Positions 55,477 to 59,581 of a stretch of DNA of 64,000 nt are shown here, in pieces. The translations under genes and the position numbers were made by a program. The stretch lies in contig NZ_CP031311.1 of NCBI RefSeq assembly GCF_004799685.1, positions 310,001 through 374,000 of the forward strand, in the 5' to 3' direction. Below the pieces are notes generated by a model. It had not been told where the DNA came from, did not search any database, and saw only the letters and a list, made by a program, of their open reading frames with translations. This DNA is from Halobellus limi (lineage in GTDB: Archaea; Halobacteriota; Halobacteria; Halobacteriales; Haloferacaceae). Numbering within the stretch: the stretch's first letter is position 1; each line of letters begins with the position of its first letter.

Positions 55477-56781
55477 TCACAGCAGCGCGAACACGGCGAG
55501 CGCGCTGACGACCGCGCCGACGAGGGTCGCGGCGAAGTTGACCGCCTCGTTGCCGAACGTCGCGCCCTCGACGGTCGCGCCCAGGAGGCTGTCGGCGTTC
55601 ATCCCGAGGAACCCGCCGAGCGCGACGACGGCCGCGCCGAGCGGCGTGACCCCGGGCAGGAGCGCGAGGGCGACGGCGCCGACGACGGCCGAGCCGATCA
55701 GTCCGAACACCTCGCCCTGCCAGGTGACTCCCCCGTCGGTGCCCGGCGGCACGGTCTCGAACGTCGTGATGAGCCGCGGGTCGTCGTACAGTCCGCCGAG
55801 TTCCGAGGAGAGCGTGTCGCTCAGCGCGGCCGCCATCGACCCGGCGAAGGCGTACTGAAAGAGGGTCCCGTCGACCGGGAACGACTGACTGGCGGCGAAG
55901 CAGATGACGCAGACCAGCGCGACGGCGGCGTTCCCGAGCACGTTCCCGGTCCCGCGGGCGCCCTCGTTCTCCTCGGCGATCCCGCGCTCGGTCTTCTCGT
56001 CGTATCGGTACTTCGTCGAGAGCGACCCGACGCCGAAGAAACTGATGAGCACGGCGAACCAGCCGACGCCGCCGAAGACGATCACGAGCAGGCCGAGGAG
56101 GACCCCCGAGAGCATCCCGGCGACCGAGGCCGCCCCGAGCGCGTAGGAGGCGATCCCCAGCGCGACCGTGACGGCGAGGCCGGCGACCACGTCGAGGGTC
56201 CCGACGGCGACCGCGAGCGCGTCGAACAGCCACAGCAGCATCCCCGTCGAGAGCATCACCAGCGGGTCGTCGCGCTCGAAGAGCATCTCCCTGAACAGCG
56301 CCGCGACGAGCGTGCCCGCGACCGCGAGGAAGGCAAAGCGCGGCAGGAGGACCGCCGTCGACGACAGCGACGCCACCGCGGCCTGCCCCGCGACGCCCGC
56401 GAGGCTCCCGCCGAGTCCGAACCCGGCCGCCCCGAGGAACGGGTTGTCCGTCGTCTCGGCGACGAGGCGCTTGCCGAGGTTGCCGTAGGCGAGGACCATC
56501 ACGGCGGCGACGAAAAGCGGCACGGGCAGGCCGATCTCGGTCGCGAGGATGGCGAGTCCGGCGGCCGCCAGCGCGAACCCGGCGAGCCCGTTCAGTCGGC
56601 CCTCGCGGCGGTCCGCCGGCCGGGCGAACAGCTCGAACAGCGGGCCGTCGGTGATCCCGAACGCGGCGGCGACCGCGACCGCGGCGAAGGGGGCGAACGC
56701 CGCCCGTCCGAGCACCGGCGCGGCCACCGCCAGGGTCCCCACCAGGGCGAACCCGCCCGCCCGCCGGAGCGTCGGTTGCAC
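55477..56781 (-). CDS. DUF92 membrane protein
   Basis: 434 aa from the GTG at 56781, about 24 nt after the TATA-like GGTTAAGTG (about 56803-56811); an ATG at 56829 is in frame but lies upstream of that TATA. About ten helices. 'AGSMAAALSDTLSSELG' and 'VPPGTDGGVTWQGEVFGLIG' are DUF92/TMEM19-like. In plants and cyanobacteria a related family phosphorylates phytol (VTE6), so an isoprenoid-lipid kinase role is possible, but not shown. Confidence 0.85.
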   Translation of the reverse strand: MQPTLRRAGGFALVGTLAVAAPVLGRAAFAPFAAVAVAAAFGITDGPLFELFARPADRREGRLNGLAGFALAAAGLAILATEIGLPVPLFVAAVMVLAYGNLGKRLVAETTDNPFLGAAGFGLGGSLAGVAGQAAVASLSSTAVLLPRFAFLAVAGTLVAALFREMLFERDDPLVMLSTGMLLWLFDALAVAVGTLDVVAGLAVTVALGIASYALGAASVAGMLSGVLLGLLVIVFGGVGWFAVLISFFGVGSLSTKYRYDEKTERGIAEENEGARGTGNVLGNAAVALVCVICFAASQSFPVDGTLFQYAFAGSMAAALSDTLSSELGGLYDDPRLITTFETVPPGTDGGVTWQGEVFGLIGSAVVGAVALALLPGVTPLGAAVVALGGFLGMNADSLLGATVEGATFGNEAVNFAATLVGAVVSALAVFALL

Positions 56782-56958
56782 GTCTCCGGATACCCCCGAC
56801 GCGCACTTAACCCTCCCGACATCCGGCATCGCCGTCCCCCGGCCTGCGGACCCGCCGACCCCGGACGGTGTCTCGCCCCCGCCGCGTCGGCCCCGCCGTT
56901 GCTGTCCCGAACGTGACCGTCTGCGCGACCGACGCTCTCGATGCTTCCGGCGCCGAGA

Positions 56959-57714
56959 TCACAGCGTCGACGTCACCTGCTCGGCGCTCGCGACCTCGGG
57001 GATGATCACCTCGTCCGCGCCGGCGCGGCGCGCGAGCGCCTCGTACATCCCGTCGCCGACGCGGACGACCAGTCGGACCGTCGGCGCGATCTGGCTCGCC
57101 CCCATCGCGATCTGGATGTTCGCGTTCGAGTCGTCGATCGCGCCGACGACCGTCGCCGCCCGTTTGACACCGGCGTCCCGCAGCACCTGCTCCCGTCGAG
57201 CGTCGCCCTGCACCGCGAGGATGTCGTCGTCGATCGCGCGCTGAAACTCCGCGTCCTGCTGTTCGATCACCACCACGTCCCGGCCCTCGTCTCGAAGCCG
57301 CCAGGCGACGGTCTTCCCGAACGTGCCGTAGCCGCAGATGATGATGTGGCCGTCCAACTCGTCGATCGTCCGTTCGATCTGCATCTCTCTGAACTCCGTC
57401 CGTATCCGTCCGCCGAAGGCGGCCGAGAACACCGTCTCACCGATCCAGAGGCCGGTGACGACGAGCCCCGACAGCACGACGACCGCGTACCCCTTCGTGA
57501 GCGTCTCGGCTCCCCCGTGCGCCTGGAAGTGCAACTCGATGCTCGTCGGGTCCAAGAGCCAGAAGAGCGCGTCGACGACGCCGACGCCGCCCAGCGAACT
57601 GAATCCCGCGACGCCGAGGACGACGACGGCCCCGAAGGCCGCGACCGGGCGGAGGAGCCGGCGCAGCAGCGGTCGCTGAACGACTGCCCGAATCGGTCCG
57701 GACGAACCGCTCAC
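56959..57714 (-). CDS. channel-like membrane protein with TrkA-N domain
   Basis: 251 aa. Two membrane helices (residues about 25-50 and 75-98) flank a pore-like loop 'ALFWLLDPTSIELHF', and a RCK/TrkA-N NAD-binding domain follows ('IIICGYGTFGKTVAWRL', GxGxxG; 'VVVIEQQD'). The loop lacks the TVGYG potassium filter; 'LDPT' and the Gly later recall CASTOR/POLLUX-like channels. So the ion is uncertain. The start at 57714 follows the TATA AATATAAAAATATG (minus, about 57746-57759). Confidence 0.85.
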   Translation of the reverse strand: MSGSSGPIRAVVQRPLLRRLLRPVAAFGAVVVLGVAGFSSLGGVGVVDALFWLLDPTSIELHFQAHGGAETLTKGYAVVVLSGLVVTGLWIGETVFSAAFGGRIRTEFREMQIERTIDELDGHIIICGYGTFGKTVAWRLRDEGRDVVVIEQQDAEFQRAIDDDILAVQGDARREQVLRDAGVKRAATVVGAIDDSNANIQIAMGASQIAPTVRLVVRVGDGMYEALARRAGADEVIIPEVASAEQVTSTL

Positions 57715-57937: not shown

Positions 57938-58546
57938 GTGGGACTGTACGACCGCTACCTCGCCCTCCGTCACCGGCTCCACGACGCCGACCCGCCCGCG
58001 CACGTCGCGGTCGTGATCACCGAGCGGGACCTGCTCGAACAGGGGGCCTACGGGACGCTCGCGGAGTTCCTCGGGTGGGCCTTCGAGTACGGCGCCGAGC
58101 GCGTCACCGTCTCGGTGAGCGTGCTCGACGAGGCCGTGGTGCCGACCCTGTCGCGAGAGCTTCGGAACGTCGAGTCGCCCCGCCCCGTCGCGGTCCGCGA
58201 ACCGGGCGACACCGAACGGGCCGACGCGCCCGTTCGGGTGAACATCGGGCTCGGCGGGAAGCGCGAGTTCGCCGCGGCGGTGCGCCGGATCGCCGAGTCC
58301 GTCGAATCGGGTGAACTCTCGCCCGACGAGGTCGACGCCGGCGAGATAGAAGAGCGGCTCGTCTTCGACGACGAGCCGGACCTGCTGATCAAGACCGGCG
58401 CCGAGCGCCTGTCTGACTTCCTCATCTGGCAGTCGGTCTACTCGGAACTGTACTTCACCGACGTCAACTGGCGGGACTTCCGGCGGCGGGACTACCTCCG
58501 CGCCGTGTTGGACTACCAGAACCGACAGCGGCGGTTCGGTCGGTGA
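57938..58546 (+). CDS. degenerate cis-prenyltransferase subunit (NgBR-like)
   Basis: 202 aa in the UppS/DHDDS superfamily, but the active-site motif is gone. '[11 protein letters not shown]' lines up with 'THVAIIQDGNR' of the catalytic neighbour, so the catalytic Asp is Thr28 and no D-G-N-R motif remains. Later motifs are kept: '[19 protein letters not shown]', '[18 protein letters not shown]' and '[15 protein letters not shown]'. The chain ends 'NRQRRFGR', carrying the R-x-G motif (R199-F-G201) needed in trans by eukaryotic NgBR. It likely pairs with the catalytic subunit at 58640-59581 to make polyprenyl diphosphates. Start GTG 57938 is leaderless. Confidence 0.88.
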
Positions 58547-58639
58547 TCGGCGCCGGCGGCGTCTCGCGAGACCAGTTGCCTCGCGGGGCGGACACGCTAC
58601 GGCGGTGCGAACTGTCGCCGGTCGTGGAACGGCGGCCGA

Positions 58640-59581
58640 TCAGTCCGCGCGCTCGCCCGCCTCCGCGCCGCGCTGGCGCTCCAGTTCCGCGGAGACCTCG
58701 CGAGCGCCCGCGGAGGGGAGTTGCGTCCGAAGCCGTCCGGCGACGGTCTTCGCGTCCGCGAGCTCGGTCTCGGCGACCGCCCGGAGGATGCCGACGGCGC
58801 GTTCGGTCCGGGACTGCTGCCAGGACTGCTCGCGGGCCTGGTAGGTGCGCAGACCGCGGAGGAAGTCCACCTTCGAGAACTCCGGCCAGTAGGGCGCACA
58901 GAAGTAGACGGCCGCCTCGTTGCCGTTGGCGTGCCACGGCAGGAAGTTCGAGGTCCGCTCGTCGCCGCCGGTCCGGATGATCAGGTCGACGTCCCGCGTC
59001 GTGTGCTCCGCCAGACGGTCCTCGACGGCGTCGGCGTCGACCTCGTCGGGCGAAAGCTCCCCGGCGGCGACCTCGTCCGCGACCGTCCTGGCCGCACCCA
59101 GCAGTTCGGACCGGCCGCCGTACGCCAGGGCGACGTTGAGTCGGAGCGAGTCGTACTCGGCCGTCCGCGACTCCGCGTAGTCGACGGCGTCGCGGACCCG
59201 CGCGGGCAGTCGCTCGACGTCGCCGATCGCGCCGATCCGGACGCCGTTCTCGTGGACGCGGTCGGCGTCGGCGAACTCGTAGAGCTTCGATTCCAGCAGG
59301 TCGAAGAGGGGTTCGAGCTCCTCGTCGGGACGGTCGAAGTTCTCCGTCGAGAAGGCATACAGCGTGAGTTCCTCGATCCCCAGCTCCTCACACCAGTCGA
59401 GGACGCGTTCCGTCGTCTTCGCGCCCTCGCGGTGTCCGTCGGGGGCGTCCGCGCCGCGCTCGCGGGCGTAGCGTCGGTTGCCGTCCTGGATGATCGCGAC
59501 GTGGGTGGGCGCGGCCTCCAGCTGTCGGCGGAGCATCCGCTCGTACGCGTCGGTGAAGCGTCGGCGGAGCCACTTCGGCAT
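58640..59581 (-). CDS. uppS: cis-prenyltransferase catalytic subunit (UppS-like)
   Basis: 313 aa. The catalytic P-loop motif 'HVAIIQDGNRRYARERG' has Asp33. 'LTLYAFSTENFDRP', 'LNVALAYGGRSELLGA' and 'LIIRTGGDERTSNFLPW' are family motifs, and Glu in 'NGNEAAVYF' matches the conserved Glu. The end differs: after 'WPEFSKVDFLRGLRTY' there is a 60-residue basic helical extension and no R-x-G motif. It should build long-chain polyprenyl (dolichol-type) diphosphates for glycan transfer. It faces the degenerate subunit, 93 nt stop to stop. Confidence 0.93.
   Translation of the reverse strand: MPKWLRRRFTDAYERMLRRQLEAAPTHVAIIQDGNRRYARERGADAPDGHREGAKTTERVLDWCEELGIEELTLYAFSTENFDRPDEELEPLFDLLESKLYEFADADRVHENGVRIGAIGDVERLPARVRDAVDYAESRTAEYDSLRLNVALAYGGRSELLGAARTVADEVAAGELSPDEVDADAVEDRLAEHTTRDVDLIIRTGGDERTSNFLPWHANGNEAAVYFCAPYWPEFSKVDFLRGLRTYQAREQSWQQSRTERAVGILRAVAETELADAKTVAGRLRTQLPSAGAREVSAELERQRGAEAGERAD

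Follow-up and report, generated by a model that had tools for sequence, protein, structure and literature searches.

A convergent gene pair of Halobellus limi that probably encodes a two-subunit cis-prenyltransferase completed by an R-x-G motif in trans

The window analysed here, by which we mean the whole stretch of 64,000 nucleotides from Halobellus limi, carries two genes that converge tail to tail with 93 bp between their stop codons (Table 1). Both products match the family PF01255. The + strand protein, which we refer to as the helper, scores 92.5 bits and the − strand protein, the putative catalytic subunit, 231.9 bits (cut-off 27); in the latter the match covers residues 31-253, so that a tail of 60 residues remains. 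The pair accounts for every PF01255 gene of the Halobellus limi genome (3.75 Mb, 99.9% complete). The coordinates and reading frames given in the initial annotation are correct for both genes, and the ATG with which the catalytic subunit begins lines up with the points at which related proteins begin. That either gene might be a chance or misannotated open reading frame is ruled out by GC content by codon position, which for both is of the coding type for this genome, and by the presence of orthologues everywhere. The initial annotation had also described the genes as convergent rather than as an operon, and this is indeed their order; convergence is no argument against pairing, however, because the arrangement is itself conserved (see below).

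Table 1. Features at the locus. Positions are those of the window; subunit names follow the reading proposed in the text.
Feature	Position	Strand	Remarks
DUF92 (PF01940/TIGR00297) integral membrane protein gene	55477..56829	-	divergent from helper; conserved neighbour
TrkA_N protein gene	56959..57714	-	between DUF92 and helper
Non-catalytic (NgBR-like) subunit, "helper"	57938..58546	+	202 aa, GTG start, PF01255; T28 at catalytic Asp position
Helper C-terminal R-R-F-G-R	58529..58543	+	R-x-G plus exactly one residue before stop; trans role proposed
Catalytic (DHDDS-like) subunit	58640..59581	-	313 aa; D33-G-N-R-R, F77-S-T-E-N, R84, R203-x-G-G, R209-x-S211, E222
Catalytic subunit C-terminal extension, residues 254-313	58640..58822	-	helical; S-W-Q replaces R-x-G

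What does each protein keep of the motifs of the superfamily? We aligned 86 helpers and 83 catalytic proteins of haloarchaea with about 40 of each subunit from a second genome set, mostly from elsewhere in the phylum, and transferred the numbering of E. coli UppS to this alignment. The initial annotation had pictured two proteins with complementary losses, and the alignment bears this out, except that the losses are broader than a single Asp. The Asp position of H-V-A-x-x-(D) is T28 in the helper and Thr in 86/86 haloarchaeal helpers. The haloarchaeal helpers are also without equivalents of N28, R30, F70, S71 and N74 (UppS numbering); the R39-H43 loop and the W75-R77 segments are deleted, F70, S71, E73 and N74 are changed in every haloarchaeal row, and R194 is replaced by Lys. 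What the helper retains, again in UppS numbering, is R200, S202, E213 and R242-F-G244. The catalytic subunit shows the reverse pattern. D33, N35, R37, S78, E80, N81, R84, R203, R209, S211 and E222 are invariant across all 83 haloarchaeal rows, as is R36, and D33-G-N-R-R and FSTEN are found in every one of them. In UppS terms, equivalents of D26, N28, R30, S71, R77, R194, R200 and S202 are present in 83/83 haloarchaeal and 41/41 other catalytic rows, N74 is retained throughout, and E73 and E213 almost throughout; across the wider phylum D-G-N-R occurs in every catalytic protein. The position of R242-x-G244 reads S253-W254-Q/R in haloarchaea (S253 in 81 and W254 in 80 of the 83 rows). The catalytic gene is as first described, with D-G-N-R, an extension of about 60 residues and no R-x-G.

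The end of the helper is fixed not only in motif but also in length. As initially noted, the Halobellus protein ends in RRFGR, and in all 86 haloarchaeal helpers exactly one residue follows the Gly of R-F-G before the chain stops. Among the 48 helper rows of the tree set (see below), 46 end in R-x-G plus one residue and the other two in K-x-G plus one residue. In human NgBR, whose C-terminus is R-L-G-K, the phosphate of the IPP site is held by the Gly and the residue before it, the Arg spans both diphosphate sites, and the terminal carboxylate of K293 reaches into DHDDS and contacts R37 and R85; removal of K293 or addition of one extra Ala reduces activity (PMC7573591). R37 and R85 of DHDDS correspond to R36 and R84 of the haloarchaeal catalytic subunit. 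It is hard to see why the length after R-x-G should be fixed if the free carboxylate itself were not used. We regard this overhang, which was absent from the original observation, as the strongest sequence-level argument for a mechanism in trans, although the step from conservation to contact is one that we infer.

Models of the fold are consistent with this assignment. AF2 models of the single chains, built from shallow haloarchaeal alignments, have a mean pLDDT of 80.5 (helper) and 76.8 (catalytic subunit). Their active-site loops are modelled with little confidence, namely residues 157-168 and 199-202 in the helper and 208-223 in the catalytic subunit. The helper model aligns end to end with residues 80-291 of NgBR (7pay_B: Z 15.1, rmsd 4.0, 177 aligned), and matches UppS-type chains about equally (Z up to 16.3). 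The catalytic model matches many cis-prenyltransferases, DHDDS among them (7pb1_A: Z 25.3, rmsd 2.8, 242 aligned). Helices are modelled in the region of its extension at residues 237-270, 274-287 and 290-309, and a profile of the full-length protein runs through DHDDS 10-301; a sequence search with the extension alone gave no match to the DHDDS extension, a helix-turn-helix by which DHDDS forms its tetramer.

The pair is common to essentially all haloarchaea and to most families of the phylum, methanogen relatives included. PF01255 matches were found in 292/292 haloarchaeal genomes sampled, nearly all of which have two or more, and a helper profile search recovered the helper from 116/116 haloarchaeal genomes. 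Two or more PF01255 genes are likewise present in almost all of 197 genomes across the phylum, and a gene-by-gene examination of 27 non-haloarchaeal genomes showed a single helper in each, together with one or more catalytic proteins. In family f18, neither subunit gene was found in any of five genomes (G298, G307, G316, G325 and G332; 75-91% complete), and such joint absence is what we would expect if the two genes made a single enzyme. Single subunits turned up in five drafts: the helper alone in G072 and G442 (99% and 95% complete) and the catalytic gene alone in G376, G411 and G447 (83-89% complete). All five assemblies consist of 80-330 contigs, and the absences are more likely, though not provably, due to contig gaps.

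Some haloarchaea depart from the simple one-to-one pattern. Two catalytic genes are present in several genomes (G068, G195, G105, G061 and G148, at L172/L179, L173/L180, L174/L182, L171/L183 and L016/L181, respectively), and G195 carries a second full pair; in one of its two pairs both genes lie on the same strand (L180). Possibly these extra genes and pairs serve separate carrier pools. A further haloarchaeon, G002, carries an open frame of 622 residues (L184:1489-3354) of which residues 387-590 resemble the catalytic subunit but are without D-G-N-R, and which would be a third, fused cis-prenyltransferase-like protein in that genome.

In a maximum-likelihood tree of 104 rows (LG+C20+F+G4 by PMSF), all helpers form one clan (branch 100/99) and the catalytic subunits another (99/91), the latter apart from bacterial UppS and from MM_0014-type enzymes. 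Note that the helpers L126, L139, L186 and L187 sit on long branches and that their exact placement is unsure. The simplest reading of the tree is that catalytic and helper proteins split once, before the phylum radiated.

We compared 80 named haloarchaeal helper loci, taking up to 4 kb on each side. The catalytic gene lies downstream on the opposite strand in 57 of the 80 and on the same strand in none, and in the 63 linked pairs the median gap is 90 bp, with 39 gaps below 200 bp. The tail-to-tail order also recurs in nine families on the methanogen side (f14, f21, f22, f23, f25, f26, f28, f29 and f30). The arrangement is inherited, so these counts are not independent and speak to conservation of the neighbourhood rather than providing a test of function. 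The two genes, almost always tail to tail where they are linked, are unlinked in most Halorubrum loci and in Methanosarcina-like genomes. Helpers of the Halorubrum type (L101, L103, L106 and L178) have an insertion near residues 90-100, and their loci are without a linked catalytic or DUF92 gene.

A second conserved neighbour lies on the other side of the helper. In 66/80 haloarchaeal loci the DUF92 gene adjoins the helper and is read from the opposite strand; it also stands beside the helper in 9 of 18 methanogen-side regions and is single-copy in the Halobellus limi genome. We take VTE6, the phytyl-phosphate kinase of plants and cyanobacteria, to be a member of the DUF92 family. This would make the DUF92 protein a candidate prenyl-lipid kinase of the VTE6 family beside a polyprenyl synthase, a link that is suggestive only, because DUF92 also occurs in genomes that have neither synthase gene. 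We rejected DUF92 as a strict third subunit: it is present in the five f18 genomes that are without the pair, and in about half of the methanogen-side regions it is not linked. The TrkA_N gene that intervenes at the Halobellus locus was ruled out as a part of the system; it occurs in only 5 of the 80 loci, all of them Halobellus.

We consider it highly probable that the two convergent genes encode one heteromeric cis-prenyltransferase, a polyprenyl diphosphate synthase, with its R-x-G acting in trans. The two proteins would form a complex in which both are needed. The − strand protein would bind the allylic diphosphate and IPP and catalyse chain elongation, while the + strand protein, as a catalytically dead paralogue, would insert its C-terminal R-F-G-R-COOH into the active site of the partner and so supply the R-x-G that the catalytic subunit is missing. 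On the pattern of NgBR, the IPP phosphate would be held by the backbone beside the Gly, the Arg would span both diphosphates, and R36 and R84 of the partner would be contacted by the terminal carboxylate of the helper. The product is most likely a medium-chain (about C50-60) precursor of the dolichyl-phosphate carrier for N-glycosylation of the S-layer and archaellins. The initial annotation had proposed an enzyme of this DHDDS-NgBR-like kind, and the proposal draws support from the complementary motif loss, the genome-wide exclusivity of the pair, its conservation across class and phylum, its joint absence from f18, the resemblance in fold to NgBR and DHDDS, and the single residue that always follows R-x-G. 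Dependence on the helper need not be absolute: human DHDDS alone retains some activity (PMC7573591), and by analogy the haloarchaeal catalytic subunit may not strictly require its partner.

There are other scenarios that might explain two such genes. Imagine that the catalytic protein worked alone as a homodimer, with some other residue in place of R-x-G, and that the helper were a regulator or had an unrelated function. Homodimers of human DHDDS are weakly active (PMC7573591), the S253-W254 that occupies the R-x-G site in haloarchaea is almost invariant, and the two genes are not always linked, all of which would fit. Yet the catalytic subunits have no equivalent of R-x-G at that position, the helper strictly keeps an intact phosphate-binding tail of R-x-G plus one residue for which no other use is evident, both genes are missing together from f18, and the M. 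mazei paralogues are cited as parts of a single heteromeric enzyme (PMC8131916). We therefore regard a self-sufficient catalytic protein as improbable.

Models that focus on the helper fare worse still. It might itself be catalytically active, through a displaced active site in which, for example, T28-E29-R30-D31 replaces D-G-N-R, and make a different product. That stretch is almost invariant, T28, E29, D31, L32 and L33 being invariant in haloarchaea, and the phosphate-site residues of the second half of the protein (R157, S159 and E170) are retained. Against this, the R39-H43 and W75-R77 deletions and the changes at F70, S71, E73 and N74 affect all haloarchaeal rows, and outside haloarchaea residue 28 is Thr in 12 helpers, Ser in 9, Asp in 5 and Ala in 4, a variability not expected of a catalytic residue; we give this model very little credence. 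Should the helper instead be a decaying, functionless duplicate, loss of the catalytic motifs would be accounted for, and this is the one point in its favour. However, 66 of 202 columns are invariant among 45 helpers, the gene is present in every haloarchaeal genome searched, and helpers form one ancient clan that spans the phylum. Decay is already contradicted by this conservation, and we hold it to be the least credible of these models.

Returning to the heteromeric enzyme, one may ask how far the proposal extends. It is possible, though we put it forward only tentatively, that such an enzyme is ancestral to the whole phylum, that a three-gene locus of DUF92 (on the opposite strand), helper and catalytic gene was its place of origin and is still where it is mostly found, and that DUF92 is a lipid-carrier kinase or related enzyme. 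If so, the three-gene locus would mark an archaeal polyprenyl/dolichyl-phosphate pathway with otherwise unassigned enzymes. The conserved DUF92 neighbour is in any case a concrete candidate for a missing step in archaeal carrier-lipid metabolism.

To our knowledge, heteromeric cis-prenyltransferases were long regarded as eukaryotic, a single methanogen apart. The design itself is already known, from humans and, biochemically, from one methanogen pair, and it is not peculiar to the Halobellus genome; the split is general and ancient in the phylum that unites haloarchaea and Methanosarcina-like methanogens. The open-access papers searched contain no account of a heteromeric enzyme from haloarchaea, keeping in mind that Emi et al. 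2019 may already discuss haloarchaea. How general the pair is, the constant length of the helper's C-terminal overhang and the conservation of the three-gene neighbourhood all seem to be unrecorded in the literature searched, and the DUF92 gene beside the helper likewise looks unreported. Where haloarchaeal genes carry the plain annotation UppS, assays should be done on the pair. Haloferax and Halobacterium are genetically tractable, which makes them suitable for asking how an active site is completed by a dead subunit; the question carries medical weight in that the NgBR substitution R290H causes disease.

How does the pair compare with known systems? The closest is that of M. mazei, where MM_0618 and MM_1083, like the haloarchaeal pair two cis-prenyltransferase paralogues, form a heteromeric enzyme with C45-50 products, to which the glycosyl carrier lipids are attributed (Emi et al. 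2019, as cited in PMC8131916). Our comparison with that system runs through a Methanosarcina-like genome (G424) with three PF01255 genes, of which one (L156) is of the MM_0014 type, matching 7caq, and the other two are one catalytic and one helper gene that fall in the same two clans as the Halobellus genes. Methanosarcina-like genomes contribute one row to each of these clans. By elimination via this genome, G424, the Halobellus pair is very probably orthologous to MM_0618/MM_1083. The systems differ in that the two genes are unlinked in the Methanosarcina-like genomes examined whereas they lie tail to tail in Halobellus, and in that Halobellus limi is without a third enzyme of the MM_0014 type, so that the pair is its only cis-prenyltransferase.

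The human enzyme offers the same division of labour. DHDDS resembles the catalytic subunit in having D-G-N-R, FSxEN and a helical C-terminal extension but no R-x-G, although it makes C85-100 chains and haloarchaeal carriers are expected to be shorter. NgBR resembles the helper in being dead, in its cis-prenyltransferase fold and in ending with R-x-G plus exactly one residue. NgBR is membrane anchored, whereas the archaeal helper is without a membrane segment: the maximum 19-residue hydropathy of the Halobellus protein is 0.88, and no 19-residue window above 1.6 that would indicate an N-terminal transmembrane anchor was found in the 86 haloarchaeal or the 48 tree-set helpers. In sequence, too, bacterial UppS, in its C-terminal half, is a nearer match to the helper than NUS1 is; the helper profile scores 23 bits against NUS1, over the full length (17-202), and 103 bits against E. 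coli UppS, in the C-terminal half only. With a match this weak and no membrane anchor we did not file the helper as an NgBR/NUS1 orthologue, and common descent of the two is not established. Bacterial UppS enzymes, the homodimers of E. coli and A. baumannii, are like the − strand protein in fold and catalytic motifs and are its best PDB matches. They differ from the haloarchaeal pair in where the active-site parts reside: UppS holds Asp and R-x-G in one chain, and in haloarchaea these are divided between two.
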